DNA of 64,000 nucleotides from Bacteroidia bacterium (GTDB taxonomy: Bacteria; Bacteroidota; Bacteroidia; Flavobacteriales; Flavobacteriaceae): positions 124,001 through 188,000 of the forward strand of contig JAUIBP010000006.1 of NCBI GenBank assembly GCA_030427735.1, in the 5' to 3' direction. The translations under genes were made by a program, and so were the position numbers. Positions within the stretch are counted from its first letter, which is position 1. Each line of letters opens with the position of its first letter. This document shows positions 5,933 to 36,867 of this stretch, in pieces. A model generated the notes under the pieces. It saw only the letters and a program-made list of their open reading frames with translations. It did no database searches and was not told where the DNA came from.

Positions 5933-7039
5933 TCATTTTGTTTTGTTTTGTAACTCGTTGTATAAAGTCTCTGTTAAATTAGTTAGGAATTTAGTTTCAT
6001 TACCGTTGTTCCTTTTTTTTATTTCTTGCAATTGTTGAGGTATGGTTTCTGGATTAATCTTTACCCCAAAAAATTCAGAAGCACTTAAGATGGCGTTTTC
6101 ATAGGTTCCCTTAAATGTACCATTAACATGTAATGCTTTTATTAACTCTGTAAATTCTACATTTTTTCCATGCCATTGCAATTTTATGTTAGTTTTATTA
6201 ATTCCTTTATTTTCTAATTCATTAATTTTATTCTTAATTTTTTGTTCAAACCTATAAAGCGAAAAGAATTCATAGGGGAACAATAAGCCTTCCAAATCTA
6301 TACTTGATTGCATGTTCTGGAATAATTTTTCTCCTTTTTGTGTAAGGTTTTTAGGTTTAGTGGTTGTATTTAAAGGCACTTCTAGGCCGTTATTTATTCT
6401 TTCTTTAATGGCAAGGTCTATTTGTTCAGAAGTATATCCGTTTTCTTGTGTTTCTTTTTCTTCAAAGAGATAAAAAGATAAGTCGTATAGTAAGGCCTTC
6501 AATAATTCAATATTATAATTTTTTGAGGTTTCCTGTAACAAAATAGTCATATCAAAATCACCTATTTCCTCATATCTTATTTTGTCAAATAATTTAAAAC
6601 TTTCCGACTCATGATCTCTCGTGTTGTCTTCAATAACGTTGGTTTTTTCATACTTCTCAGATCCGAAAAACATTTCATGGTTATTTTTTTCACTTATAAA
6701 GTAGTTTAGAATTCTCTCGAAAGCATATTTTAAACGTTTTCTTTCTTCTTCAATAACAACATTATTACCGTCCTTGATTTTAAATAGGATAACTTGATGT
6801 AAATTTGTGCCGATATATTCTGACTCTATTATTTCTTCTCCAGATGTTGAGGTAATGTACGTTACATTTTGTAAGCAAATTTCATAATGTTTAATGCCTT
6901 CCTCTATGAAATGAATTTCTGTACTGTCTGGATATTTTTCATTATAATATTCTTTGTCTTGTGAATAGTTTTCTTTGAATTCTTTATAGTTAAAGTATGT
7001 CCTAAAGTCTAAGCCGGATTGATTTTTGTCTGATTTCAT
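5933..7039 (-). CDS. RteC-like protein of the integrative element
   Basis: 368 aa. The C-terminal third contains KLQWHGKNVEFTELIKALHV then NGTFKGTYENAILSASEFFG with VKINP. This matches the 'I.W.g....LiELIyAL...G.i..g...i..i...FE..F.i.l' pattern at the C-terminus of RteC, the regulator of excision and transfer genes of Bacteroides conjugative transposons. The N-terminal 230 residues are acidic and helical and show no recognisable domain. It lies 43 bases downstream of the integrase on the same strand, next to the HTH gene, the usual place for an excision/mobility regulator. The RteC link is confined to the C-terminal domain. Confidence 0.6.
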   Translation of the reverse strand: MKSDKNQSGLDFRTYFNYKEFKENYSQDKEYYNEKYPDSTEIHFIEEGIKHYEICLQNVTYITSTSGEEIIESEYIGTNLHQVILFKIKDGNNVVIEEERKRLKYAFERILNYFISEKNNHEMFFGSEKYEKTNVIEDNTRDHESESFKLFDKIRYEEIGDFDMTILLQETSKNYNIELLKALLYDLSFYLFEEKETQENGYTSEQIDLAIKERINNGLEVPLNTTTKPKNLTQKGEKLFQNMQSSIDLEGLLFPYEFFSLYRFEQKIKNKINELENKGINKTNIKLQWHGKNVEFTELIKALHVNGTFKGTYENAILSASEFFGVKINPETIPQQLQEIKKRNNGNETKFLTNLTETLYNELQNKTK

Positions 7040-7082
7040 TTGAACTTTTTTGTTGCGTTGCCTATTCGTTTACTGCCGTATT

Positions 7083-8510
7083 CTAAATTATTTTAAGTTT
7101 ATGAGGCTTATTGGTTTCTTTCGTTCGCGTGTTGTGGAAATGGTCTATTTGTTCCTTGGTTCTTTCTATATTGCTTTCGTCTTTATTGTTAATGTAGGCT
7201 CTAAGTTGGTTTTCTGTGGAATGGCCTGTTATGGCTGTTATTAATGCTGTGTCAATTTTTCCATAATAGTTAGTTGCAAACGAACGTCTAAAGGTTCTCG
7301 ATGTTATTAATTTACATTTAGGGTATTCACCTCTAATATTTCTGATAACCTTTTTTCCTTCAACCTTAATTACTTCTGCTTTGCTGCCTTTTACCAGCTC
7401 TTTAATGCCTGCTTCTTCGCAAACTTCCTTTATGTCCTCATTAAGTTTTACTCCGTTGTCTGGATAGTTGGTTTGAGGAATCCCATATTTGTCAATCAAG
7501 TATTTAATTCTTTCTGTGATTATGATCTGAACAACTGTATCGGTTTTTTCTGTTCTGAATTTCCAGTAATCCACACCGTTTATAGTTTGAATATTTTCAT
7601 CATTTAATTTGTTGAAGTCGGAGTATCTTAAACCTGTTTCGCAACCTATTAAAATTGCTTTTTTCGCATCGAATAACGATTCGTTTTCAAGTTTGGTTTC
7701 GTCTATGGTGTCTAGTTCATTATAGTTTAATGTAATAACAATTTTGTCTTTGTAGACTTTATCAAACATTTTGAATGTTTTAAGCTTCTTACTTACTTGG
7801 ATATAATCTTTATCATCATTTTCATAGGCGTTTACTGCCGAACTTCTAAACCTTTTCAATTGCGCGTTTGTATAAGATTTGCTGTACCTCATATCAAGGA
7901 CACTCCAGTTCATAAATTCATCTGCAAAATCTTGATTAAGGTCTTTGATGTTGAATTTTATTTTTTTTGCCTCTTGATATTTCAAAAGCATGTTATAAGT
8001 AACCTTATACTTTTTAAGTTCGTTCTCGTTGGTTTTATATTTGACGAACATTTTTTTTATTGCGGATTCTAGAAGATTGGCCTTTATTATTTCTTTTTCT
8101 TCCTGGTCCTTTTTGTTTTTCGCTTCGGTTATTTGTTTTGAAATTGCGTCTATCTTGGTTTTAGTGTCCAAAACATTAGTCAAATCAAAAACCTTTTTCT
8201 TTAACCATTTTGAGGTTATAGGCACCCCTTTATTATAGTCGGAAATGAAGTGTTCAATAATAGAATCTTGAATGTTTGTTAATTCTTCCTTATGATTTTT
8301 AAATTGAGAAGAACCGTTGTTAGGGAGGTCTTTTAATTGAAGATGTCTGTTTATGGTTTTTCCTTTACGTGTAGTTCGTTTAAACCAATACTCTTTTCTT
8401 GATTCTATGGGAGTTGCAACCCTATAATCTATCTCTTTTCCGTGAACAAACCTTATTGAAAGTTTGCCTATATCGTTAGTGCTCCGATATATGAAGTTTA
8501 TTTTTGCCAT
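7083..8510 (-). CDS. Tyrosine recombinase/integrase
   Basis: 475 aa from the ATG at 8510 (MAKINFIYRSTNDIGKL); an in-frame ATG at 8528 would add six residues. Order: an Arm/DUF-type N-terminus (1-60), a SAM-like core-binding domain (about 145-250, Lys/Leu-rich), and a catalytic domain (260-445). Catalytic residues visible: Arg295 (ETGLRYSDF), Lys322 (RTEKTDTV), the box SRTFRRSFATN with Arg408 but Arg in place of the usual first His, His430 (ITGHSTENQ) and nucleophile Tyr439 (LRAYI). The His substitution is common in Bacteroidetes integrases. It integrates and excises the element; the attachment site lies about 165 bases upstream of its start. Confidence 0.93.
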   Translation of the reverse strand: MAKINFIYRSTNDIGKLSIRFVHGKEIDYRVATPIESRKEYWFKRTTRKGKTINRHLQLKDLPNNGSSQFKNHKEELTNIQDSIIEHFISDYNKGVPITSKWLKKKVFDLTNVLDTKTKIDAISKQITEAKNKKDQEEKEIIKANLLESAIKKMFVKYKTNENELKKYKVTYNMLLKYQEAKKIKFNIKDLNQDFADEFMNWSVLDMRYSKSYTNAQLKRFRSSAVNAYENDDKDYIQVSKKLKTFKMFDKVYKDKIVITLNYNELDTIDETKLENESLFDAKKAILIGCETGLRYSDFNKLNDENIQTINGVDYWKFRTEKTDTVVQIIITERIKYLIDKYGIPQTNYPDNGVKLNEDIKEVCEEAGIKELVKGSKAEVIKVEGKKVIRNIRGEYPKCKLITSRTFRRSFATNYYGKIDTALITAITGHSTENQLRAYINNKDESNIERTKEQIDHFHNTRTKETNKPHKLKII

Positions 8511-8544
8511 AAGGAATAATTTGAACAATGTAAATATACAAAAT

Positions 8545-8808: not shown

Positions 8809-9513
8809 ATGAAAGCACAATTTTTAATCCGTTTGTATTTAGGCTTAATGTTTTTAAGTGTTATGGCTTGTCAGCAAGATGAACATAGGTTACTTGCTCC
8901 ATCTGGAGTGGCTCAAATTATTGAAGAACAACAAACCCTACAAATTATAGACGTAAGAACTCCAGAGGAATTTAATGGTGGTCATTTAGAGGATGCTAAA
9001 AATTTCAATTGGAAGGATGATAGTTTTACTGATCAAATTTCAGCTTTAAATCCATCAGAGCCAATACTAGTATATTGTTTGAGTGGAGGTAGAAGTGCCA
9101 AAGCAGCCGAATATCTACGAAATGAAGGTTTCAAATACGTGTATGAGTTGGATGGAGGAATAGTAAAATGGCGTAGTGAAAACCGTAAGGAAGTAGCCGA
9201 GGAGGTTGTAGATTCTGGGATGAGTCTTGCTGAGTTTCAGCATATGTTGGTGTCGGATAAATTAGTATTGGTCGATTTTTATGCCGAATGGTGTTTACCG
9301 TGTAAAAAGATGGAACCTTATTTAAACGATATAGCATCCGATATGGCAACTACGGTTAAAGTAGTTAGAATAGATGCCGATAAAAATAAAGCCCTCTGCA
9401 AAACGTTAAATGTAGCTGCTTTACCTGTTTTGCAATTGTATAAAGATGAAACTAAAATCTGGGTACATTCTGGGTTTATAGAGAAAGAAGAAGTCTTAAA
9501 ACAGTTGCAATAA
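8809..9513 (+). CDS. Rhodanese-thioredoxin fusion lipoprotein
   Basis: 234 aa. The lipoprotein signal peptide ends in LSVMAC (Cys21). A rhodanese domain follows (about 28-125: IIDVRTPEEFNGGHLEDAKN, active-site loop YCLSGGRS with the catalytic Cys, then ELDGGIVKW). A thioredoxin domain comes next (about 138-234: VLVDFYAEWCLPCKKMEPYL, then RIDADKNKALCKTLNVAALP with the cis-Pro). The redox motif is WCLPC, not the standard WCGPC, which should shift the redox potential. Expected location is the periplasm, anchored to a membrane, in sulfur or disulfide handling. It is the first host gene to the right of the att site and converges on the nucleotidyltransferase gene with an 11-base gap. Confidence 0.9.
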   Translation: MKAQFLIRLYLGLMFLSVMACQQDEHRLLAPSGVAQIIEEQQTLQIIDVRTPEEFNGGHLEDAKNFNWKDDSFTDQISALNPSEPILVYCLSGGRSAKAAEYLRNEGFKYVYELDGGIVKWRSENRKEVAEEVVDSGMSLAEFQHMLVSDKLVLVDFYAEWCLPCKKMEPYLNDIASDMATTVKVVRIDADKNKALCKTLNVAALPVLQLYKDETKIWVHSGFIEKEEVLKQLQ

Positions 9514-9524
9514 TTAGTATAAAA

Positions 9525-10559
9525 TTACTTCTTTTTAAATAGCTTATTCTTGAAAATATGCGATCGGTAACTTTTGTTGGTAGCAAAAGTGATGACCCGG
9601 TCTTTAATATTGATGTAATATCGCTTTAGCCTGTATGTGGTCTTTAAATAGTTGCGATGGTTAATGGCGTAACGATAATCATTTTGTTTGCGTTCTAAAT
9701 GTTGCTTTAAAGGTGGAAGCTGATATTCTGGAAAGAGCACTTTGTTTAAAGCAAGATAATGGGCGCATACTGGAGTTTTTGCGAGTGATTCTATAAGCGT
9801 TTTATTGTTGAATAATTTAAGAACCAGACTGTCGTAACTATTCTTTAATGAGAGATGGTTGTAGTAATAGCCATCATCATTAATTTGCCATGCTAAAATA
9901 TTATGTAAATTCAGGAAGTAATTATTGGGGACGTTTATTTGGTTAATTTCTTCTTTGGTTTGCAACATGTCATTAATGTCTAATAAATGATGATGATTAT
10001 ATTTTAAGACATTGGTGTGTAGCTCCACAGCGGCCAATTTATGCTCGGAAGCTTGTCTCGGATAATGCCTGTGATGTTTTACTTCGTAATCAAAATCGTA
10101 ATGCTTGGTGTAACCTGCGGTATTTAGTAAATGAAAAGCTTGGTCTATTTGGTGTTGCGCAATTAAAATATCAATGTCCCCAATCATACGTTCGGAAATC
10201 GATTCGTATAATCCGCTAGCGAGCATAGCAGCACCTTTTAAAAATACATGATCGATATTATGCGCTTTAAGTAATGCGCTTAAGGTGGTAACTTCTTCTA
10301 AAATTTGAAGGTTTCGTTCTAAATTTAACCGGTTTATTTCTTCTAAATACAACACAAGGTCTTCGGGAATACTATCTAACAATCCTTTACTTTTAAGCCT
10401 AATGTATATTACAGGAATAATTAAATGACTACTCGCTACACGAACCACATCTTCCCAATCGATAGGCGATTTCTGGATACACGCTTTTAATTCGGTAACA
10501 TCGGTTTCAAAACTTAATATACTGGCAATCGTAAAATACGTTGAGTGTATGTAAGGCAT
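9525..10559 (-). CDS. NTP_transf_5-family nucleotidyltransferase
   Basis: 344 aa. The core of the family is clear: HVFLKGAAMLASGLYES (about 104-120) then ERMIGDIDILI (123-133), where the GDxDxL aspartates are the expected metal ligands. A helical N-terminus precedes it and a basic C-terminal tail follows (YRLKRYYINIKDRV, NKLFKKK). Members of this family transfer a nucleotide to an unknown substrate and often lie beside HprK-like kinases in peptide or polysaccharide clusters. Here it starts 32 bases after the HprK-like kinase gene on the same strand and is the last gene of a four-gene operon. Its substrate is unknown; the 85-aa peptide of the operon is a candidate. Confidence 0.8.
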   Translation of the reverse strand: MPYIHSTYFTIASILSFETDVTELKACIQKSPIDWEDVVRVASSHLIIPVIYIRLKSKGLLDSIPEDLVLYLEEINRLNLERNLQILEEVTTLSALLKAHNIDHVFLKGAAMLASGLYESISERMIGDIDILIAQHQIDQAFHLLNTAGYTKHYDFDYEVKHHRHYPRQASEHKLAAVELHTNVLKYNHHHLLDINDMLQTKEEINQINVPNNYFLNLHNILAWQINDDGYYYNHLSLKNSYDSLVLKLFNNKTLIESLAKTPVCAHYLALNKVLFPEYQLPPLKQHLERKQNDYRYAINHRNYLKTTYRLKRYYINIKDRVITFATNKSYRSHIFKNKLFKKK

Positions 10560-10591
10560 AAATGGTTGTTGAATTGAACTGTAATTTACAA

Positions 10592-11725
10592 TTAAATGGG
10601 CAAAATAGAACGAAATTTTAAAATGGCATCCTCATTATTACTATACGTTAATTTGTAAAAACTGAGTGTTGTTAACCATTCTAAAAAGGCTTTGGCATTT
10701 TCTGGTTTTGGCGAAATCCAAGAATCGGGAATAAGAATTTCTAGAGCTTTTTTAGCGTTAATACGCTTTAATTCTGTAGCAGCATCTTTCTGGTAGTTTA
10801 TTAAAACTAAGGTTTTGCAGGGGACCTGTAACTTATCGGGTGTTAGTGCTGGGATGTATTTTATAGCACCTTTATAAGCTCTTAAATGATTGTTTTCGAG
10901 TTCATCTATATTTGGGATGTATGCGCGGAGTGTATTGAAAGCCCCTTCTTTAGTGGAAATAGCATTTGGCAAATGATATACATTGAAATCTGTATTTAGT
11001 AACGGTGTGTTATCGTCTGCAATTAAGGAATAACCAGAGCAGGTTAATAGTGTTGTGAAGGTGCTTTTGCCGCTGCCGGATTGCCCGATTAACATCACTG
11101 AGTCTCTGTTGTTGGAGACTGTCGAAGCATGAAATACTCCAATCCAATCGTGGTTCACCTTATTGTGCAATGCATTTATGAGTTCCATATAAATTCTGCC
11201 TTGTAATTTGTGGTAGTGATTGGTTGGGAAAGCTCTTACAAAGACATCGTTTTTATATAATAAATGTAAATTATTTTTAATTGAAAGATTAAAATAGAAA
11301 TCTGTTTTGCTGTATTTAGTGGTTTCTAAATGTGCTAATTGCGGGTGGATATATGTTAGAAGGTCCTCTGATTCATAATTTATACAGAAGATTTTCTTTG
11401 AACTACTATAGTATTTGGTAAGAACATAATTTGGTTTTTCGATTGGATGGTCTAATTGCGCAATGCTCTCTTCAATAATATTAGAATTTCGGTCGGTGAG
11501 AAATTTTTCAACATCGTTAAGCAATTGTTCGGCTTGAACCGAGCTTAATTGAAATTGTTTTTTATAAAGAGAAACGCATTGCTTTTCTGTATCCGTATCA
11601 AAATACGTTTGCAAACAAAAAAACAATCCGTTATCGACAATAGTGTATTGATTTGAAGGCTCAAACCATAAAACCATTAAATCGTTAACGGATTGTGTAT
11701 ATCTAGGTTTTAAAAAACCTTTCAA
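10592..11725 (-). CDS. HprK-like Ser kinase with a PqqD-like N-terminal region
   Basis: 377 aa. The C-terminal two thirds resemble HPr kinase/PEPCK-type P-loop kinases: GVFHASTV (about 196-203), Walker A GQSGSGKST (214-222) and the acidic ADD (236-238) that follows the P-loop in HprK proteins. Residues 27-80 (YTIVDNGLFFCLQTYFDTDT, then VSLYKKQFQLSSVQAEQLL) have the strand-helix pattern and length of PqqD/RRE domains, which bind leader peptides. This is a fold guess from pattern. The gene starts 12 bases after the 85-aa peptide gene, so translation is probably linked. Expected role: ATP-dependent phosphorylation of a peptide or protein Ser/Thr. HPr itself is unlikely, since no PTS genes are near. 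Confidence 0.75.
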   Translation of the reverse strand: MKGFLKPRYTQSVNDLMVLWFEPSNQYTIVDNGLFFCLQTYFDTDTEKQCVSLYKKQFQLSSVQAEQLLNDVEKFLTDRNSNIIEESIAQLDHPIEKPNYVLTKYYSSSKKIFCINYESEDLLTYIHPQLAHLETTKYSKTDFYFNLSIKNNLHLLYKNDVFVRAFPTNHYHKLQGRIYMELINALHNKVNHDWIGVFHASTVSNNRDSVMLIGQSGSGKSTFTTLLTCSGYSLIADDNTPLLNTDFNVYHLPNAISTKEGAFNTLRAYIPNIDELENNHLRAYKGAIKYIPALTPDKLQVPCKTLVLINYQKDAATELKRINAKKALEILIPDSWISPKPENAKAFLEWLTTLSFYKLTYSNNEDAILKFRSILPI

Positions 11726-11737
11726 TATCGTTTTATA

Positions 11738-11995
11738 TTAAAAGTTGCTTTTTACCTGATTTTTGTCTATTTGGGTATCCTGAATGGTACTACTGTTAGC
11801 AGGAGCACTACTGTCGTCAATTGTAGCTTCGCCACTAGTTCTTGATGCATCTGGATCTGGTGGGTTGCTTGTTTCCTGAGCTCGTAAAGGATTTAACACA
11901 GCAAACGTACCTACAGCAGTAAAGGCTGCATATTTACCTAGTTTTTTAATGGCTTCTTTACGAGTGATTTCTGTATGTTTTATTTCCTTTTTCAT
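11738..11995 (-). CDS. Small exported Ser/Thr/Asp-rich peptide, candidate modification substrate
   Basis: 85 aa. Residues 1-20 are polar and basic (MKKEIKHTEITRKEAIKKLG). Residues 21-40 form a hydrophobic export-type segment (KYAAFTAVGTFAVLNPLRAQ) ending in a signal-peptidase-like ALRAQ-type site. The leader has the shape of a Tat-like signal but with TRK in place of RR. The 45-residue remainder is Ser-, Thr-, Asp- and Pro-rich (NPPDPDASRTSGEATIDDSS) and ends in KSNF, with no Cys. It lies 38 bases after the T9SS protein gene and 12 bases before the HprK-like kinase. Size, composition and spacing make it a likely substrate of the kinase and nucleotidyltransferase. No family is recognised. Confidence 0.7.
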   Translation of the reverse strand: MKKEIKHTEITRKEAIKKLGKYAAFTAVGTFAVLNPLRAQETSNPPDPDASRTSGEATIDDSSAPANSSTIQDTQIDKNQVKSNF

Positions 11996-12033
11996 AAGTG
12001 TAAATATAAAATAAGTTTTTGGTAAACAAAATG

Positions 12034-14220
12034 TTATTTTAAAATAACACGTTTAGAGATTTGGTTTCCAGTATTATTTTCTATGCGAACAATGTAAATA
12101 CCGCTGCCTAAACCAGTCGTGTTAATAGTATATTCATTAACCGTTTGATTTAAAACAGTATTGTGTACTTGTCGACCTTGGATATCGAAAATGGCTAATT
12201 TGGTATTTCTATATAATTGTCCTTTAAGTTTTATAGAGCGTTCACCTGTAAATATTTGTATTTGATCTTTGGTGCTGTCTTCTATACTAAGTTTACTGTC
12301 GTCGGTTGTATGTAGAATAAAGCGGCCCAAGCCAGACAGTTTTTCGTCGGTAGTAAAGGTGTAAGCTTTATCCGATAAAAGAGTCCAGGTGTTTGTTTTA
12401 GTATCTTCTAAGTACACTGTTGCACTTTCGCTTAAAGTAGATTCTTTAATTTCTAAAGTAATTTGCTGTCCTTTTGGGGCTATTATACCAAGCGGGATAT
12501 CAATTCCAGTTGCTAAATTACTGTTAGGTAATGTTTGGATGGCTATTTTAAAGTCAGGATTAGATTCTACCATTTGTGTGAAAAGGGTGTAACCTGAGGC
12601 ATTGTTGCCATAAATTGTGGCATCGTAACCTTTATCAAAACCTAAACTTGCGATATCGTTGAAGTATACTTCTGTAGTGTGTCGCGTTGTTTCACCACTG
12701 TTCATTGCTAATTTAAAGTGCGTTTTATTAATGTTTGTTGTTCTGCCGGCTATAAAGTCATCGCCAGGACCATTGGTTCTCATCTCTGGATTGAAAACCA
12801 TGTACGCGTCTGGGCTTGATGAAGGGATCGCAACGAAAAACCCTTGCCCAGGTGCCATTTGCACACCAGAACTTAGATTATAAACTAACCAACCATCAGA
12901 AGCATTCCCGTCGTAACCATAAACAGCTTCTTTCCCTGACTGAAATAAATCTTCATTGGTTGAAACAAAATTTGCAATATCAAGATAAGACGTGTATGGA
13001 TTTCCAATTAAATTCCATTGCGATGCATATTCATCGGTATATAAAACAAAACGAGATACTGATCCTGTTTCTATATCTCCAGAAAAGACAAAGAAGTTGC
13101 CGTTTGAGTTAGTTTGTGAACGATACCCTTCACCTGCTTCTAAAATTTCACCTTCTATCACTTCTTCTGTAGACCAGTTAAGGTAGCTACCAGAAAGCTT
13201 GGAGTAAGGGCCAAAACGTACTTGATTTGTACCTGCATCTACCATATTGTCGGCATTTGTTATTGCGAAATCTGAAAACAATTCTCCTGGTAAAGGTGAA
13301 GAGATTAAATCGCTTGTAGCTTCATTAACATGTCTTGAATACCTAGCACTACCAATTGGAGATCCATTAACTATTAAAGAGCCATAATTCTGAGAATTAG
13401 ATTCAATTAATAGGTTGTTAGCTGTAGTAATATCGTTAACTGTTAAAGAACCTGTTGGGGCTATAGTTATACCAGCTCCAGTTTCAGTGTATACATTTTG
13501 TAGTTGTATGGCGGAGTCTATAATATATGTGCCGTCTACAATAAGGGCATTACTATCACCCGTTTCATTATCAGGAATAGGGTGTTCCGTTGTGCCTCCT
13601 GTCCAAAGTCCACCTTGATAAATGAAACCGTCAAAAGAATCTATAGCAACTGCTTTAAAGTTGTCAAAAGAAAAAACTGCAGCTGCATAGTTGTTGTGAA
13701 AACCTGCAGGATAATTTACCTGAATATAAAAAGCTATTATTGAGCTATTATTGGGCACATTGATTGATACAGTTCCAGAACCAGATCCTGAATTTAATGC
13801 GTTGGAAGCTAAAGTCTCTGAAGCAAATTCTTCACCATCTACATATAACTGATAAGTTAGGGTAGGTACAAAATTTTGATTTTGAGCTATATATTCATAG
13901 TCGAAGCTAGCAACAACATCTTCAAATTCACTAATATCTAAATCATCAAATTCTAAATAGTAATTTAATCTAGAAGCTGGAGTCTTGGCGCTATTCTGTA
14001 AACCAAAAAAGAAATCTCCATCATCAGCTGTTCCTATTGATCCAAGGATATCAAGCACCCTCCATTGAGTAGCAGCAGTGTTTATTGGAGCTGTTGGAGT
14101 AGTTGAATAATTCCATGTGCTTTCAGTGTCGAAATTTTGAGAGCCAATCGTCACATCTTGTCCATAACTAGCAGATGCAAGCGTTATACAACATAATAAT
14201 AAAAAGTAAATTTTCTTCAT
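12034..14220 (-). CDS. T9SS type A sorting-domain surface protein
   Basis: 728 aa. The signal peptide is MKKIYFLLLCCITLASASYG, followed by Gln. Residues 22-200 look like a beta-sandwich with Asp/Asn-rich loops. The middle (about 240-460) is a stretch of repeats typical of secreted flavobacterial proteins (GSLTVNDITTANNLLIESNS; WNLIGNPYTSYLDIANFV). The last 80 residues are a type A sorting domain, with KLAIFDIQGRQV, YTINTTGLGSGIYIVRIEN and a KRVILK end. The protein should cross the outer membrane through the type IX system and be anchored outside or released. It is the first gene of the operon that continues into the small peptide, kinase and nucleotidyltransferase. No catalytic motif is seen. 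Confidence 0.85.
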   Translation of the reverse strand: MKKIYFLLLCCITLASASYGQDVTIGSQNFDTESTWNYSTTPTAPINTAATQWRVLDILGSIGTADDGDFFFGLQNSAKTPASRLNYYLEFDDLDISEFEDVVASFDYEYIAQNQNFVPTLTYQLYVDGEEFASETLASNALNSGSGSGTVSINVPNNSSIIAFYIQVNYPAGFHNNYAAAVFSFDNFKAVAIDSFDGFIYQGGLWTGGTTEHPIPDNETGDSNALIVDGTYIIDSAIQLQNVYTETGAGITIAPTGSLTVNDITTANNLLIESNSQNYGSLIVNGSPIGSARYSRHVNEATSDLISSPLPGELFSDFAITNADNMVDAGTNQVRFGPYSKLSGSYLNWSTEEVIEGEILEAGEGYRSQTNSNGNFFVFSGDIETGSVSRFVLYTDEYASQWNLIGNPYTSYLDIANFVSTNEDLFQSGKEAVYGYDGNASDGWLVYNLSSGVQMAPGQGFFVAIPSSSPDAYMVFNPEMRTNGPGDDFIAGRTTNINKTHFKLAMNSGETTRHTTEVYFNDIASLGFDKGYDATIYGNNASGYTLFTQMVESNPDFKIAIQTLPNSNLATGIDIPLGIIAPKGQQITLEIKESTLSESATVYLEDTKTNTWTLLSDKAYTFTTDEKLSGLGRFILHTTDDSKLSIEDSTKDQIQIFTGERSIKLKGQLYRNTKLAIFDIQGRQVHNTVLNQTVNEYTINTTGLGSGIYIVRIENNTGNQISKRVILK

Positions 14221-14531: not shown

Positions 14532-15386
14532 ATGGCTTTGGCTATATCTTCGTTGCAACAGTTTAGCTTACCGAGTAAGCTTATTTTGGGCGTTTTTCTT
14601 GCGCTTTTGATATCTATTATGGTGTATTATACCTTTAAAATGATTGAAATGGTGTATGTTATTCGTTTTAAAAAACCACTGTTTGTTCATTTTTATATGG
14701 CGCTTAAAAAACTTAATGACGCCGATAAAGCGTTGTTGTATAAGAATTTTAATTTTTATAAATCTTTAAACGAAAAACAACGCCTGTATTTCGATCATCG
14801 TGTTATTGCTTTTATTAATGATAAAGAGTTTATTGGACGTGATGGATTAACTGTTACTCACGACATGAAGTTGTTAATTTCTGCGCATGCGGTTATTTTA
14901 ACATTTGGTTTTAGAGATTTCTTTATTGGTTTAATCGATAAGATATTTATTTATCCGAACAAATTTTACTCCAGCTCTAGCGATGCTTATCATAAAGGTG
15001 AAATGAATCCGAGATTGAAAACGCTTGTTATTTCTTGGGAAGATTTTATGCATGGTCTAGAAATGACTAATAATACTGTGAATGTTGGTATTTTTGAGTT
15101 TACCCATGCTATTCATTTTAATAGTATGAAGGAAGGCGATGTGAGCTCTACTATTTTCTCAGATTCTTTTAAAGAGCTGGCGCGTATGCTAACCAAAAAC
15201 GAGGGGCTGCGTAAAGAATTGATGGAGTCTCGTTTTTTTAAGGATCATCAAATTTTGAACCAGTTCGATTTTCTTGCCGTTATCATGGAGCATTTTATAG
15301 AACGTCCTACTGAGTTTAAAGGGCAATTTCCTCAGGTTTATGCCAAGGCTAAGCAAATGTTGAATTTTAACTTCGTAGGGTATTAG
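14532..15386 (+). CDS. MtfA-like protein with a degenerate zinc-peptidase motif
   Basis: 284 aa. One N-terminal membrane helix (about 14-45: LILGVFLALLISIMVYYTFK) anchors a soluble domain similar to MtfA/zinc-dependent peptidase proteins (DHRVIAFINDKEFIGRDGLT; ISWEDFMHGLEMTNNTVNVG). MtfA proteins carry HEFxH. Here residues 188-192 read FEFTH, so the first zinc His is Phe (codon TTT) while Glu189 and His192 remain. The acidic and structural residues downstream are kept. This points to a binding or regulatory pseudoenzyme unless another residue supplies the ligand. In Enterobacteria MtfA titrates the Mlc repressor; no such partner is seen here. It is alone on its strand. Confidence 0.75.
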   Translation: MALAISSLQQFSLPSKLILGVFLALLISIMVYYTFKMIEMVYVIRFKKPLFVHFYMALKKLNDADKALLYKNFNFYKSLNEKQRLYFDHRVIAFINDKEFIGRDGLTVTHDMKLLISAHAVILTFGFRDFFIGLIDKIFIYPNKFYSSSSDAYHKGEMNPRLKTLVISWEDFMHGLEMTNNTVNVGIFEFTHAIHFNSMKEGDVSSTIFSDSFKELARMLTKNEGLRKELMESRFFKDHQILNQFDFLAVIMEHFIERPTEFKGQFPQVYAKAKQMLNFNFVGY

Positions 15387-23134: not shown

Positions 23135-24865
23135 ATGAAAATAGTTTATAAAACAATTCGTTTTGTAATAGAAATACTTCCTTCAAAAGATAGGATGAAA
23201 TTAATTATTGTAGGATGTTTACTGTTTTTAAGTTCATTTTTAGATTTACTTGGACTCGGTGCTTTATTACCTGTTTTTTCTGTTTTGCTGGAAGATGATG
23301 GTATAGGAAAAAATCCTTATCTAAAAGGGATTTATGATACACTACATTTAACAAATGAGAACCAATTAGTAGTTATTCTGGCTATTGGCTTATTTTTAGT
23401 AATATTAGGTAAAAACTTAATAGGTTTATTAATAGTCAAGCATAATTCTAAATTTGCACTTGGTTTATCAAAAGATTTTGCCTTAAAGATGCATCAAATT
23501 TATTATAAAAAAGGCTTTTCTTTTTTTAAAACTACAAACTCTAATGTTGTAATGAGAAATGTTCGTGTAGCAACAACACAATTTGCACAATTACAGGTGT
23601 TAGGCGCATTGAATTTTTTAAACGAAGTTATAGTTTTAGTATTTATAGTTGTATTTATAGCAATTTACAATTTTAAAATTTTATTGTTGCTAGCTTGTAC
23701 TGTACTGCCTCCATTTTTAATATTTTATAGTTGGGTTAGAAAAAAATCGCATGAGCTAGGTAATGTTACTCAAAAGGTTACTCCCTTGGTGGGTAAAAAC
23801 ATGTTTCAAAGTATATTTGGTTTTGTCGATGTGAAAATAATGGGGGCAGAACAAGAGTTTAGAGATAAAATTGAAGAGAATTTAGACGATTTAGTAGATG
23901 TAAGTGTTAAAACTAATATTTATAACTTGGTTCCTACTCGAGTAATTGAAACTTCAATTATGCTAGCAGTAGCTATTATGATTTCTTTTGGTATTTATTA
24001 CTTTCCATCTAAAGTAGAACTTTTAAAATTATTGGGTTTATTTGCTGTTGCAGGATATCGTATTATGCCATCTATAAATCGTATGATGGTCGCAATTAAT
24101 GGACTAAATAGGTCTAATTGGATTTTTGAGGTGCTATCTCCTTTAAAAACCGAGGCCAGATTACTTGAAGAACCAAAACAATATCCTATAGCTTTTAATC
24201 AACATTTAAGGTTAGAACAAGTAGAATTTAGTTACCCAAATTCAGAAACCCCAGTTTTAAAGAATATTAACCTGACTATTAAAAAGGGAGAGGTTATAGG
24301 TTTAGTAGGGCCATCTGGAGCAGGTAAAACGACTTTAATGAATATCTTATTGGGATTTTTATCGCCAACTAAGGGTAGTTTTCTTATTGACCAGACAGTA
24401 TTGGATATTAGTCACGAGAAGGCTTTCTACGAAAAAGTGGGCTATGTGCAGCAACAGGTTTATTTGATAGATGGTACTATTGCCGAAAACATAGCTTTTG
24501 GTTGTAAAGAAGAAGAGATAGATAATAAAAAGCTTCAAACGGTTATAGAAAAGGCCAATTTAAGGAGTATGGTTGATAGTTTGGAGTTTGGGGAGAAAGA
24601 AATTATTGGCGAAAATGGGACGCGATTATCTGGAGGACAAAGACAACGGATTGGAATAGCTAGAGCTTTATATTTTGATTCTGAAATTCTTTTTCTTGAT
24701 GAAGCCACATCCGCTCTAGATACCGAAACAGAAAAGGAGATTACAGATTCAATACACACTTTAAGTGATGGCAACCTTACGTTAATAATTATAGCGCATA
24801 GATTGAGTACTTTAAAACACTGTAATAGAATTATTACAATTGAAGATGGGGAAATAAAAAAATAA
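23135..24865 (+). CDS. PglK/MsbA-type ABC flippase, fused TMD-NBD
   Basis: 576 aa. The membrane domain (about 20-330) has five or six helices (LIIVGCLLFLSSFLDLLGLG; VVILAIGLFLVILGKNLIGL; FIVVFIAIYNFKILLLLACT). The ATPase domain (about 358-576) has Walker A GPSGAGKTT (392-400), signature LSGGQRQR (498-505), Walker B ILFLDEA (519-525) and the H-loop IIIAHRLSTL. The protein is a half-transporter that works as a homodimer. In a locus with Wzy and Wza/Wzc genes but no Wzx, it most likely flips the lipid-linked oligosaccharide repeat, as PglK does for N-glycans. Lipid A export (MsbA) is less likely by context. Confidence 0.85.
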   Translation: MKIVYKTIRFVIEILPSKDRMKLIIVGCLLFLSSFLDLLGLGALLPVFSVLLEDDGIGKNPYLKGIYDTLHLTNENQLVVILAIGLFLVILGKNLIGLLIVKHNSKFALGLSKDFALKMHQIYYKKGFSFFKTTNSNVVMRNVRVATTQFAQLQVLGALNFLNEVIVLVFIVVFIAIYNFKILLLLACTVLPPFLIFYSWVRKKSHELGNVTQKVTPLVGKNMFQSIFGFVDVKIMGAEQEFRDKIEENLDDLVDVSVKTNIYNLVPTRVIETSIMLAVAIMISFGIYYFPSKVELLKLLGLFAVAGYRIMPSINRMMVAINGLNRSNWIFEVLSPLKTEARLLEEPKQYPIAFNQHLRLEQVEFSYPNSETPVLKNINLTIKKGEVIGLVGPSGAGKTTLMNILLGFLSPTKGSFLIDQTVLDISHEKAFYEKVGYVQQQVYLIDGTIAENIAFGCKEEEIDNKKLQTVIEKANLRSMVDSLEFGEKEIIGENGTRLSGGQRQRIGIARALYFDSEILFLDEATSALDTETEKEITDSIHTLSDGNLTLIIIAHRLSTLKHCNRIITIEDGEIKK

Positions 24866-24892: not shown

Positions 24893-25657
24893 ATGATTGT
24901 TACTAAAGATTTTGTTTTGTTAAACTACCCCAAAACAGGTAGTTCGTATATGCGAGAATGTATAAAACAATTATATAAAGAAGATAGCTTATTTAATAGT
25001 ATCTTTTACAAACAAGAAGTTTTTAAAGAGTTATATTTTCCTAAAATATATGGTAACCCGTCGTCTAACTATAAGGATCAACATGGGATAGCAAAACAAA
25101 TCCCTAAGATGTATCAAGACCGCCCAATTTTAACAGTTGTAAGAAATCCTTTAGAAAGAATAACGTCCTCTTATTATTTTGGATGGTGGAAAAGAAATCC
25201 GGTAGGGGAGATATCTTCAATCGAAAAAGAATATCCAGATTATCCGAATATAGATCTGTTAACTTATGCGAAGTTATTAAATAATCCAAAGTTAACACCT
25301 TCTAACTTATTGCCGCAATATGCAGATACGTTAGGATATAGTACGCGACTTTTTTTAATATTTTATTCTGAAGATCCTGAACATTCAGCACAACGCTTAA
25401 TCTCAGGACAAACAGAAGACTTATTGGGTGTTATTAAACCGAATATTCATTTTTTGAAACAAGAGCACTTGCAAGAAGATTTAACACAATATATAAAAAC
25501 ACATACATCTAGAGATCATAAAGTTCTGTCTTCAGTTCCTGAAAAAAATAAAGGGAATTATAATAAGAAAGCTTATGATAATGATTTTGTAGAATATATG
25601 CTAAGTATGGATAAATATCTTATTAATACTTTCTATAAAAATGAAATAACTTTATAA
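24893..25657 (+). CDS. Sulfotransferase-family protein 1
   Basis: 254 aa. The N-terminal PAPS-binding loop has the family form NYPKTGSSYMRECIK (about 12-26). The 3'-phosphate-binding region is VVRNPLERITSSYYFGWWKR (about 83-102), with the Arg/Ser pair. It is soluble and cytoplasmic, with no signal or membrane segment, so it would sulfate sugars on nucleotide- or lipid-linked intermediates using PAPS. It is one of four sulfotransferases in this locus. It starts 27 bases after the ABC gene and ends one base before the next start. Confidence 0.75.
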   Translation: MIVTKDFVLLNYPKTGSSYMRECIKQLYKEDSLFNSIFYKQEVFKELYFPKIYGNPSSNYKDQHGIAKQIPKMYQDRPILTVVRNPLERITSSYYFGWWKRNPVGEISSIEKEYPDYPNIDLLTYAKLLNNPKLTPSNLLPQYADTLGYSTRLFLIFYSEDPEHSAQRLISGQTEDLLGVIKPNIHFLKQEHLQEDLTQYIKTHTSRDHKVLSSVPEKNKGNYNKKAYDNDFVEYMLSMDKYLINTFYKNEITL

Positions 25658-28933: not shown

Positions 28934-28990
28934 TATAAAATACTGAAATTAAATTATTGAAAAATTAGTACTGTGAAGCAGAAAAGTAAC

Positions 28991-29956
28991 ATGGAATTAA
29001 GAAAACAAAGATTAATTAAAATTTTTGTTACCTATATATATAAATATTATCCCAAGCAGTATGACAAAACCATATGGTTAATTGGGTCGGGGCGTAGCGG
29101 CACAACTTGGGTGTCTTCTTTAATTAATTTTAATAATTCCTTTAGAGAATTATTCGAACCTTTCCACCCCAGTTATTCCGAATTAAGTGCCGTTGGTTTT
29201 TGCCAACATAAATATTTAAATGATGCAAATGATAATATAGCAATAGAAACGTTGTCTTCTCAGATATTGAAGGGCAATTTTTATCAAAAACGATCAGAGG
29301 AAGCAAATAGGTTTATATGGCAAAGACCGAGATATAAAAATATGTTGATTAAAGATATTTTTACAAATTTATTGGCCTATCAGATTTGTAAAACCAATAA
29401 ATATGTAAAACCTGTACTCTTAATTAGAAATCCGTTTTCTGTGGCATTATCTAAATCAAGAACTAAAGATTGGTATTGGATGACAGATCCGATAGATTTT
29501 TTAAATCAGAAAGAACTTATGAATGACTTTTTGAATCCGTTTGAAAACTTAATTAAGGATATTTCTAAAAATGGTACTCATTTAGATAAGCAAATATTAA
29601 TATGGTCCATAATTAATTATGTTCCTCTTAAACAATTTAAAGGAAATGAGTTATTAGTAACTTTTTATGAGGACTGGGTAATAAATCCAGAAAAAGAGTT
29701 AAATCGTATTCAAGAATTTGTGAAATTAGATTTATCTGTGAATGGCGATTTTAAAGATTTTAAAAAATTTAAGAAACCCTCAAAAACATCGGTTACCAAT
29801 AATTTCAGTATATCAAACTGGAAGAGTCAAATTAATCAAGAGCAACTAAAATCGGCTTCAGATATTTTGGAGCGTTTTGGTTTTAAAGAGTTGTATGATG
29901 AAAACTCAATTCCCAACCATTTTATTTTAGAATCATTAATAGAAGAAAATAAATAA
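28991..29956 (+). CDS. Sulfotransferase-family protein 2
   Basis: 321 aa from the ATG at 28991; a GTG at 28973 adds six residues. The PAPS loop is WLIGSGRSGTTWVSSLI (about 30-46), the textbook SGRSGTTW form. VLLIRNPFSVALSKSRTKDW (about 150-169) is the 3'-phosphate region. A basic N-terminus (KQRLIKIFVTYIYKYYPKQY) may contact a membrane. It is cytoplasmic, sulfating a sugar or lipid-linked intermediate. It follows the broken branching transferase, and the next gene begins 16 bases on. Confidence 0.87.
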   Translation: MELRKQRLIKIFVTYIYKYYPKQYDKTIWLIGSGRSGTTWVSSLINFNNSFRELFEPFHPSYSELSAVGFCQHKYLNDANDNIAIETLSSQILKGNFYQKRSEEANRFIWQRPRYKNMLIKDIFTNLLAYQICKTNKYVKPVLLIRNPFSVALSKSRTKDWYWMTDPIDFLNQKELMNDFLNPFENLIKDISKNGTHLDKQILIWSIINYVPLKQFKGNELLVTFYEDWVINPEKELNRIQEFVKLDLSVNGDFKDFKKFKKPSKTSVTNNFSISNWKSQINQEQLKSASDILERFGFKELYDENSIPNHFILESLIEENK

Positions 29957-33899: not shown

Positions 33900-34763
33900 A
33901 TGCAACCACAATTTATAGTAGCAGGTGCAGCAAAGGCAGGTACCACAGCATTGTGCGAATATTTAGGAAGAGATCCTAAGATTTTTATGACATCCCCAAA
34001 GGAGTTGGATTTTTTTTTAAGACCAAGAACTCCAGAGGATGTTGAAGAATATAGTGTCTTTTTTAAAAATGCAGGTCAGTTGTTAGCAGGCGAGGGTTCG
34101 GTGTCGTATTTGTCTAATGCACAGCAAGCAGCACCACAGTTGAAAGCTAATTTTCCAAACTTAAAATTAGTCTTTATGCTAAGAAATCCTGTAGATCGTT
34201 ATGTGTCTGATTTTTGGTTTTATGTAGCAAAAGGTACAATAGTTAATAAGCGTAATTTATTTGAAAACATTTTATTAGGTAAAGAGTCCTTATACATTCA
34301 CAATGGGAAAGTAAACTTTAGAGATTATTTGATAGAGCGTGGTCAATATGCACAACATTTAAAAATATTTATGCAGTATTTTGATGCTTCTCAAATTCAT
34401 ATTATTTTTTTTGAAGATTTCATTAAAGAACAGGAGCGTACAATAAAAGATTTATATAAATTTTTAGGTGTAGATTATGTTCGAAAAGAACAAGTTGTTA
34501 AACAATCTAATAAAACGGTTTATCCAGGTAGAATGATGCCTCTTTTTGTGCTTTGGAAAAATGTTAAACGATTTTTGCCTACTAAAATTGTAAATAATAA
34601 AGCTTTTAAGGATAAGTTGTTGGGAGTTAAGTCATTATTTTTTAATAATAAAAAACCAAAATTATCTCAGGCTTCGAAAGAAAAATTGAATAAAATTTAT
34701 AAAACTTCGATAACAGATCTAGAAGTTTTACTAAACAAAGATTTGTCTCATTGGAAATTGTAA
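33900..34763 (+). CDS. Sulfotransferase-family protein 3 (heparan/NDST-like)
   Basis: 287 aa. FIVAGAAKAGTTALCEYLGR (5-24) carries the KxGTT PAPS loop of Sulfotransfer_1 proteins. SPKELDFFLRPRTPEDV and YLSNAQQAAPQLKANFPNLK are typical of heparan-type enzymes. VFMLRNPVDRYVSDFWFYVA (about 92-111) is the 3'-phosphate box, and IIFFEDFIKEQERTIKDLYK the C-terminal helix region. Cytoplasmic, PAPS-dependent. It is the best-conserved sulfotransferase of the four. Confidence 0.88.
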   Translation: MQPQFIVAGAAKAGTTALCEYLGRDPKIFMTSPKELDFFLRPRTPEDVEEYSVFFKNAGQLLAGEGSVSYLSNAQQAAPQLKANFPNLKLVFMLRNPVDRYVSDFWFYVAKGTIVNKRNLFENILLGKESLYIHNGKVNFRDYLIERGQYAQHLKIFMQYFDASQIHIIFFEDFIKEQERTIKDLYKFLGVDYVRKEQVVKQSNKTVYPGRMMPLFVLWKNVKRFLPTKIVNNKAFKDKLLGVKSLFFNNKKPKLSQASKEKLNKIYKTSITDLEVLLNKDLSHWKL

Positions 34764-36114: not shown

Positions 36115-36867
36115 ATGTCAAATATAAATATGCGAAAAACATTATCTGAAGTTAAATCTAAATTTGAAATTCAATTTAGTAATTCTAAATATCTATTCAT
36201 CCTCAGTCATATGCGGAGTCGTTCTTCAGTTCTTTCTCATATTTTAGGGAGTAATGAAGGTATATGCGGTTATCGCGAAATGCATAAATCATATGTAAAT
36301 TATAAGGATGTTGTAAATATGAAAGCAACTTTGAAGGAGGAATTTAAAGATGAAATAGAAGGAAGGTATTTATTGGATAAAATTCTTCATAATAATCAGG
36401 AGATTTCTAGAAAAGTTATAGACATCACAAATCCTAAATTTATTTTTTTATTGAGAGAACCTGAGAGTACTATTAAAAGCATTATAAAAATGGGGATTAC
36501 TAGAGGTAACGATTTGTATAAAAACCCAAAGGATGCTACCAATTATTATTGTTCTCGATTAAATAGACTCTCTGAACTTGCAGAAGTTCAGAATCGTGAT
36601 TTTATTTTTGTCGATTCAGACGATCTTGTTAAAAAAACAGATTCTGTTTTAAGTAGTTTAACAGGTTGGCTGGGGCTTGAATCACCTCTAACTAGTGATT
36701 ATAAAATATTTAATAACACTGGAAAACCAAGTCATGGAGACCCATCAAAAAACATATTAGGAGGGAAATTAATGAAGACGGGTGGGCATCCAGAGATTGA
36801 AATTCCATCTCAGCTTCTGCAAGAAGCTAATGTTTCTTATGAAAGATGTAAAAGGATTTTAACTTAA
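36115..36867 (+). CDS. Sulfotransferase-like P-loop protein 4
   Basis: 250 aa. YLFILSHMRSRSSVLSHILG (about 24-43) has the hydrophobic strand followed by a Ser/Arg-rich PAPS loop (SHMRSRSS) used by a divergent sulfotransferase group. KFIFLLREPESTIKSIIKMG is the 3'-phosphate-type box, and RDFIFVDSDDLVKKTDSVLS a late strand-helix pair. Less canonical than the other three; a related nucleotide-binding transferase is possible. It lies among glycosyltransferase genes on the same strand. Confidence 0.65.
   Translation: MSNINMRKTLSEVKSKFEIQFSNSKYLFILSHMRSRSSVLSHILGSNEGICGYREMHKSYVNYKDVVNMKATLKEEFKDEIEGRYLLDKILHNNQEISRKVIDITNPKFIFLLREPESTIKSIIKMGITRGNDLYKNPKDATNYYCSRLNRLSELAEVQNRDFIFVDSDDLVKKTDSVLSSLTGWLGLESPLTSDYKIFNNTGKPSHGDPSKNILGGKLMKTGGHPEIEIPSQLLQEANVSYERCKRILT

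Follow-up and report, generated by a model that had tools for sequence, protein, structure and literature searches.

A predicted RRE-guided peptide phosphorylation system paired with type IX-secreted surface proteins in Flavobacteriaceae

Positions 9525-14220 of a 64,000-nucleotide stretch of a Bacteroidia bacterium of the family Flavobacteriaceae (GenBank assembly GCA_030427735.1, contig JAUIBP010000006.1, positions 124,001 to 188,000; hereafter the window) hold four minus-strand genes that encode a surface protein secreted by the type IX secretion system (T9SS), a precursor peptide of 85 aa, an HprK-type kinase and an NTP_transf_5 nucleotidyltransferase. At its N-terminus the kinase carries a predicted recognition element (RRE) of the kind found with ribosomally synthesized and post-translationally modified peptides (RiPPs). 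Together these genes probably make up a peptide phosphorylation system that is guided by the RRE and reserved for partners of T9SS surface proteins. The case is built from computed results: conservation of the parts, co-occurrence of their genes, an RRE fold at the kinase N-terminus, invariant catalytic residues and pairing of T9SS with peptide genes. The four-gene arrangement is far beyond chance.

An earlier note on this DNA had read the locus from its letters as a candidate undescribed peptide-modification operon, and the four open reading frames (ORFs) were found exactly where it had placed them, separated by gaps of 38, 12 and 32 bases. The genes and their conserved features are as follows.

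12034..14220, minus strand: T9SS-secreted surface protein, 728 aa, with a type A sorting domain (Por_Secre_tail, TIGR04183)
about 12037-13476, minus strand: conserved C-terminal module of ~475 residues, common to the T9SS partners of the system (module alignment)
11738..11995, minus strand: precursor peptide, 85 aa, with a basic Tat/Sec-like leader, then a Ser/Thr/Pro-rich tail with Phe as last residue (family alignment of 17 sequences; 49 copies compared)
11867..11869, minus strand: codon of Ser43, the invariant serine just behind a signal-peptidase-like site and proposed phosphate acceptor (Ser in 49/49 copies; acceptor role by analogy with S3 of LppA, PMC13381572)
10592..11725, minus strand: RRE-HprK fusion kinase, 377 aa, TTG start (profiles, fold of the N-terminus, conserved residues)
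11453..11725, minus strand: predicted RRE (PqqD-like) domain, kinase residues 1-91, strand-strand-strand-helix-helix-helix (AlphaFold2, Foldseek, Z scores, hhalign)
11129..11131, minus strand: codon of kinase His199, first of the His-Lys-Asp-Asp set (invariant in 18/18)
11063..11086, minus strand: kinase P-loop G-Q-S-G-S-G-K-S, residues 214-221, with Lys220 (G214, S216, G217, G219 and K220 invariant in 18/18)
11012..11017, minus strand: codons of kinase Asp237-Asp238, the Asp-Asp of the lasso-kinase set (invariant in 18/18)
9525..10559, minus strand: NTP_transf_5 nucleotidyltransferase, 344 aa (PF14907, E 4e-36, 125.3 bits, above the gathering cut-off of 31.2; family alignment)
10170..10181, minus strand: nucleotidyltransferase G-D-I-D core, residues 127-130 (G127, D128, D130 and E179 invariant in 15/15)

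The T9SS partner is the most distinctive part of the system, a link to which the earlier note had only pointed. The window protein is assigned to T9SS cargo by both Por_Secre_tail (E 1.4e-9, 38.5 bits vs a cut-off of 27) and TIGR04183 (E 1.3e-8, 34.7 bits vs a cut-off of 23), and the T9SS proteins that adjoin the peptide are alike over ~475 C-terminal residues and unlike in front of them. In a family sample of 199 genomes from 198 genera, the window's genome included, this module is common at low score (114/199 genomes at E<=1e-15). Scores above 200 bits are found in 20/20 kinase-positive genomes vs 2/179 others (G066 and G121; G and L numbers are our handles for genomes and for loci or contigs), the next-best score among kinase-negative genomes being 176.7 (G029), with up to eight candidates scored per genome. 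The possibility that the T9SS gene is an ordinary neighbour was rejected on these counts. Profile rows came from 14 of the 20 kinase-positive genomes, and the other six also exceed 200 bits.

Wherever more than 600 bases of upstream sequence were available, the peptide was found no more than 400 bases behind a T9SS gene of this subfamily in 38 of 45 cases. The seven exceptions comprise two second copies that follow a first peptide (L025, L169), one peptide with its T9SS gene 2.0 kb upstream (L038), two with T9SS remnants of 77 and 44 aa (L098, L103) and two for which none was found (L185, L186). Both remnants stand directly ahead of the peptide (L103:4951-5085 and L098:4664-4897) and consist only of a signal-peptide start and a sorting-domain end. 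The pairing holds far from the kinase as well: G283 and G498, neither of which contributed profile rows, each have one kinase-nucleotidyltransferase pair without an adjacent peptide and six dispersed peptides, and a subfamily T9SS gene immediately precedes 11 of these 12 peptides. Likewise, in G830 (seven peptides), G787, G873, G652 and G647, 10 of the 12 peptides with upstream sequence follow such a T9SS gene. Among the pairing-test genomes without profile rows, G283, G498, G830 and G787 belong to the genus of the profile member G131 and G873 to that of G157, and only G652 and G647 are from other families. The T9SS gene and the peptide gene thus make up a unit of two genes, and this unit has multiplied; of the kinase and the nucleotidyltransferase, the samples searched showed one each per genome. 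Distances among peptides correlate with those among T9SS modules (r 0.62, p 1e-4 for 38 pairs; r 0.51, p 1e-4 for 21 pairs within one genus), which speaks for joint inheritance, not contact. Two contigs of G055 (L101:1 and L102:1) start inside the peptide at the identical residue, as if a repeated T9SS-peptide stretch had broken the assembly.

Of the genomes in the family sample, 20 have the kinase, 20 the peptide and 18 the nucleotidyltransferase. Kinase and peptide are found together in 19, so that the peptide is present in 19/20 kinase-positive vs 1/179 kinase-negative genomes, and all 18 genomes with the nucleotidyltransferase are kinase-positive. The expectation that homologues of the kinase keep company with a small exported peptide is therefore borne out. 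Because 14 of the 20 kinase-positive genomes had contributed rows to the query profiles, the fair figures are those of the six held out, in which the peptide was found in 5/6 (vs 1/179 kinase-negative genomes), the nucleotidyltransferase in 4/6 (vs 0/179) and the T9SS subfamily above 200 bits in 6/6 (vs 2/179). That the association of peptide and kinase is an artefact of finding peptides beside kinases is countered by these held-out counts together with the distant peptides of G283 and G498. Kinase, nucleotidyltransferase and peptide lie on separate contigs in G055 and G149, and in G123 roughly 370 and 490 kb separate the two peptides from the kinase; that unlinked genes co-occur in this way points to a common function and not just to their being neighbours.

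The same gene order recurs in relatives, as a search suggested by the earlier note revealed. Among 21 kinase loci, from the 20 sampled genomes (the window's included) and Gelidibacter japonicus (Flavobacteriaceae), 14 have all four genes in a single block, counting L037, where the kinase frame is broken, and L041, where kinase and nucleotidyltransferase are swapped; one more (L038) has an opposite-strand gene in between. The remaining six contain kinase and nucleotidyltransferase only (L026), the kinase alone (L036) or end at contig ends (L031, L034, L040, L042). In a phylum sample the full-length kinase was found solely in the window's family (5/395 genomes, with up to four candidates scored per genome), and in an order sample the peptide was found in 11/395 genomes, two of them from other families (G652, G647). 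The kinase is known in seven of these 11, with G830, G787, G652 and G647 outside the kinase search, and in G652 the nucleotidyltransferase gene immediately follows the peptide.

The kinase contains the P-loop GQSGSGKST, as previously read, and is of the HprK type by TIGR04352 (HprK_rel_A; E 1.9e-14, 53.5 bits, below the curated cut-off of 200). This profile matches 18/18 kinases of the family at E up to 1, the best member at E 1.4e-20, and the closest solved structures by profile are those of HprK (1ko7, 3tqf, 2qmh and 1jb1; E 1.5e-5 to 6e-5). His199, Lys220, Asp237 and Asp238 are invariant in 18/18 family members and correspond, as matched by eye, to the His-Lys-Asp-Asp residues that lasso-peptide kinases require (PMC9266682).

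That the N-terminus of the kinase is shaped like a PqqD/RRE domain had also been suggested, and a structural model, its best matches in the Protein Data Bank (PDB) and profile alignment to PqqD now agree on this point. A full-length model built from two sequences was discarded with a mean pLDDT of 32.4, and because it was unusable residues 1-91 were modelled alone; kinase relatives for modelling numbered none in viral contigs and one in genome contigs. The AlphaFold2 model of the 91 residues, again from two sequences, has a pLDDT of 85.1 and a pTM of 0.72 and consists of three strands followed by three helices. Its best PDB match by Foldseek is the lasso RRE TbiB1 (5v1v; E 3e-3, prob 1.00, TMq 0.62), and the next ranks are occupied by sactipeptide and lasso RREs, 5v1u and 6jx3 among them, and by RREs of other RiPP enzymes. 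Structural Z scores are 8.8 for 6jx3, 8.3 for 5v1v and 8.1 for 5v1u, with the remainder at 5.9 or less. Alignment by hhalign of 19 kinase N-termini to 30 PqqD proteins of the phylum scored 25.5 (P 1.9e-4, 67 columns), against 12.1 or less for 60 column permutations, 9.3 for the reversed alignment and 11.3 or less for other parts of the kinase and nucleotidyltransferase. Pfam PqqD gives no match to the window kinase at E up to 1, and a discrete PqqD protein was not matched in the window's genome at E<=0.001. From profile alignment and modelling, we regard a predicted RRE fused ahead of the HprK-type kinase as well supported.

For the 85-aa ORF neither Pfam nor NCBIfam gives a match at E up to 1, and no NCBIfam family rises above chance for 17 members of its family. 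It is nonetheless a real gene, since homologues with a nearly identical leader recur in the corresponding position of most related loci. Forty-nine intact copies (48 distinct) were compared, the decayed copies L034 and L105 being excluded. A serine stands 7 residues past a conserved proline in 49/49, alanines stand 3 and 5 residues past that proline (4 and 2 before the serine) in 44/49 each, and a basic residue lies 1 or 2 places past the proline in 49/49. The Ala-x-Ala pattern fits a signal-peptidase cut that would make the serine the second residue of the mature peptide. The leader reads TRKEA or a near variant in 46/49, followed by a KKMGKYAALTAxGTFxILNP-like stretch, and in the alignment of 17 sequences it is invariant at R12, A15, A23, T26, A27, G29, L34 and P36. 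Tails are variable save for Ser43, the residue before it included, and Phe or Trp is among the last three residues in 41/49. The short precursor with its conserved leader and variable core is that of an RRE-dependent RiPP-type system. The basic motif, the weak hydrophobic core and the basic residues before the cleavage site make the leader resemble signals of the twin-arginine translocation (Tat) pathway. TatC is encoded in the window's genome, which permits Tat export without demonstrating it.

From these results we infer the following course, including what is modified and where, the sequence of reactions, how the peptide is exported and what it does for the T9SS protein. The peptide would be made in the cytoplasm with its Tat-like leader, to which the kinase would bind through its fused RRE domain. 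The HprK-type kinase would then phosphorylate the invariant serine just past the leader cleavage site, and the NTP_transf_5 enzyme may add a nucleotidyl or sugar group to that phosphate. After export, an ordinary signal peptidase would trim the modified peptide. Judging by the gene pairing, the product would act jointly with the T9SS protein whose gene is immediately upstream, and most likely is bound to it at the cell surface; a single kinase-nucleotidyltransferase pair could serve several T9SS-peptide pairs in a genome. The chemistry itself is predicted by analogy with pseudomycoidin and with the linear polyphosphorylated peptides (LPP) of Bacillota. A more specific proposal, in which RiPP-type chemistry serves surface display and a cargo-specific, phosphorylated and probably nucleotidylated or glycosylated mini-peptide meets its cargo in the periplasm or at the surface and acts as bound cofactor, anchor or sortase acceptor while kinase and nucleotidyltransferase are shared by many such pairs, is advanced tentatively, as plausible rather than probable.

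The nearest characterised parallel is LPP (LppA, LppK, LppB and LppN), which was published in 2026 (PMC13381572). Both systems have an HprK-like kinase, an NTP-transferase, an RRE and a linear precursor and lack a cyclase. LppK phosphorylates S3 of a core that starts Ala-Gln-Ser, the S3A change abolishing phosphorylation, and the invariant serine here occupies a like place near the start of the core. LPP clusters, too, often lie in capsule loci, and their one to three precursors have variable C-termini (PMC13381572). The two differ in several respects: the RRE is discrete in LPP and fused to the kinase here; LPP clusters include a dedicated SipW-like peptidase (LppS) and an MsbA-like exporter, neither of which is in the operon here; the LPP leader carries YxxPxVLxHQxIxFETxxS, whereas the leader here is Tat/Sec-like and 0/17 have [Y/W]xxP; and LPP has no T9SS partner. 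Among the 47 window ORFs of at least 180 aa no peptidase of the S24/S26 families was reported, the related loci having been examined by ORF and profile rather than by a peptidase search, and an ABC exporter stands outside the operon at 23135-24865 in the nearby capsule cluster.

The phosphorylated lasso peptides paeninodin and pseudomycoidin (PadeK, ThcoK, PsmK, PsmN) share with the window system the His-Lys-Asp-Asp residues of the kinase, a conserved precursor serine, which is phosphorylated there, and in the case of pseudomycoidin a nucleotidyltransferase partner; PsmN, which adjoins the lasso-peptide kinase, is needed for the hexose on the phosphoserine of pseudomycoidin (PMC9266682). They differ in that the operon here has no macrolactam cyclase or B2 peptidase and in that the serine lies near the start of the core instead of being the C-terminal residue. 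The search for the asparagine-synthetase family, to which the lasso cyclase belongs, covered the operon and the 47 window ORFs of at least 180 aa, with the rest of the genome outside it, and found no member.

The HPr-rel-A set consists of the HprK-related kinase A of TIGR04352, a PqqD-like protein and NTP_transf_5. The window system has these three enzyme domains too, but its kinase scores far below the cut-off of the family, its PqqD domain is part of the kinase, and it also includes a peptide and a T9SS protein. At more distant kinase loci of the phylum, of which 20 of 23 were examined, 16/20 have a separate PqqD gene nearby and 9/20 an NTP_transf_5-like gene. Several of these kinases (L139, L141, L143, L147 and L152-L155) are clustered with PqqD and asparagine-synthetase-like genes, and all of these clusters save L143 also hold NTP_transf_5-like genes; they are probably lasso-peptide clusters, their cyclases having been recognised by eye.

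Filing the window system under LPP or the phosphorylated lasso peptides is unwarranted, because it lacks the discrete RRE, the leader motif or the cyclase by which these are defined. By analogy it most likely works as they do. The enzyme chemistry is of a known kind, and as far as we searched the RRE-kinase fusion, the family of signal-peptide-like leaders and the pairing with T9SS cargo are new. The open-access papers searched, a scope that leaves most subscription journals outside, gave no report of a peptide, kinase and T9SS pairing; among them an HprK-like kinase acting with a RiPP without a cyclase appears only in PMC13381572, none links such kinases to T9SS, and the main texts of PMC7470986 and PMC12710340 contain neither 'kinase' nor 'HPr'. 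The word 'undescribed' in the earlier note is weakened in one respect, the function, to which LPP is a close parallel (PMC13381572); the combination with T9SS was not found in the open papers searched.

What the peptide does after export could be read differently. A free secreted RiPP that diffuses and acts as an antimicrobial or signal in the manner of LPP, with the T9SS protein as an accessory (carrier, receptor or self-protection), would agree with the resemblance of the enzyme set to LPP and phosphorylated lasso peptides (PMC13381572, PMC9266682), with the patchy distribution (20/199 genomes) and with peptides that multiply, up to seven in G830, and have variable tails. We nevertheless judge it unlikely, as a large T9SS gene of a single subfamily directly upstream in 38/45 cases is an odd partner for a free peptide, many cores are just about 10-20 residues long, and the operon holds no evident exporter or leader peptidase of its own. 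A sortase-acceptor role, in which the free N-terminus of the cleaved peptide, next to the phosphorylated and perhaps glycosylated serine, would be joined to the cargo C-terminus as the sorting domain leaves and so form a peptide-based anchor, is suggested by Porphyromonas gingivalis, whose T9SS cargo is amide-linked to a seryl-bearing sugar of lipopolysaccharide in a transfer attributed to the sortase PorU (PMC13086638). Cargo with a C-terminal sorting domain is common to both, and the seryl group of the attachment point there (the SAGA linker) has a counterpart in the invariant serine, predicted as second residue of a mature peptide whose gene adjoins the cargo gene; the serine is on a lipopolysaccharide sugar there and in a gene-encoded peptide here, where attachment of cargo is hypothetical (PMC13086638). 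This role is quite improbable in our view, since an acceptor would need no one-to-one pairing and since G157 has many subfamily proteins and one peptide. Least credible of all is that kinase and nucleotidyltransferase act elsewhere, on the T9SS protein, a capsule sugar or a small molecule, and that the peptide is an unrelated small exported protein: a capsule cluster of ~36 kb starts 2.8 kb from the T9SS gene and the kinase is weakly similar to the small-molecule kinase FomB (E 1.8e-4), yet peptide and kinase share 19 genomes and co-occur unlinked, the RRE is a peptide-recognition fold and one tail position is Ser in 49/49 copies.

Several observations weigh against an RRE-guided phosphorylation system dedicated to T9SS partners. 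Some concern the recognition step and the leader: no Foldseek match of the RRE model falls below E 0.001, the best being the 3e-3 given above; the [Y/W]xxP motif of lasso and LPP leaders occurs in 0/17 peptide leaders; the Tat assignment relies on an R-K pair, not R-R, and on general rules for such signals; and the window peptide reads Ala-Gln-Glu-Thr-Ser, the final Ala of the Ala-x-Ala pattern (44/49) being replaced by Glu. Others concern the genes present: no dedicated peptidase or exporter is seen in the operon, and in LPP deletion of the NTP-transferase gene left the products unchanged in a heterologous host (PMC13381572). The distribution is also imperfect, with a kinase but no peptide in G048, a peptide but no kinase in G136 and no nucleotidyltransferase in G067 and G151, these four genomes all being 82-87% complete. 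In G040 the kinase is broken beside intact peptide, nucleotidyltransferase and T9SS genes, and two peptide copies outside the 49 are decayed, with stops at about 5029-5184 of L105 and about 2391-2510 of L034. G066 has a T9SS protein of the subfamily without the rest of the system, its peptide being absent behind the T9SS gene (on a 6.9-kb contig) and not found in the genome. At least eight subfamily T9SS proteins accompany one peptide in G157, so not each protein has a peptide of its own, and within G830 alone the peptide and T9SS-module distances are uncorrelated (7 pairs, r 0.26, p 0.12). The Fisher tests of co-occurrence ignore phylogeny.

Other genes lie around the operon. The capsule/exopolysaccharide cluster spans 16992-52472 of the window and encodes two UDP-sugar dehydrogenases, glycosyltransferases, two pyruvyl transferases, an SLBB export protein and a Wzz-type protein; with sulfotransferase-like genes at 24893-25657, 28973-29956, 33900-34763 and 36115-36867, its product is probably a sulfated polysaccharide. 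On the other side, a tyrosine-integrase-like protein at 7083-8528 (PF00589, E 1.4e-4, below cut-off) adjoins an RteC-like protein at 5933-7039 (E 1.6e-10), and 5933-8528 is likely to be a mobile-element remnant near the operon. A rhodanese-thioredoxin fusion protein is encoded at 8809-9513, convergent with the operon. A Peptidase_M90-type gene lies within 5 kb of the kinase in 8/21 loci (window 14532-15386, L023, L024, L027, L029, L030, L032 and L037), the family having been tested for the window copy and the other copies judged by their like C-termini; so recurrent a neighbour points to a chromosomal site that is old and fixed, with loss of the system more than once. In several loci the nucleotidyltransferase is followed by a gene of about 190-200 aa (L027:8762-9346, L029:8319-8891, L032:4544-5155 and others) whose product, judged by eye, starts with a signal peptide and ends like an outer-membrane protein and, for the L027 copy, matches no Pfam family; it is a possible fifth component of the system. 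The Bacteroidetes-type promoter pattern has 7 matches in the window vs 6.0 expected, none of them at the operon.

If an RRE-guided system of this kind is indeed dedicated to T9SS partners, phosphate-decorated biosynthesis of the RiPP type, as in lasso peptides and LPPs, would extend into Flavobacteriaceae. According to PMC13381572 it is not known what paeninodins and LPPs do, and service to secreted surface proteins would be the first testable role for such chemistry. With peptide and cargo genes paired and the shared enzymes separate, substrate, site and partner are directly testable in a culturable flavobacterium. The system may be a new way of equipping or anchoring surface proteins, and it would bear on how flavobacteria hold T9SS cargo at their surface.

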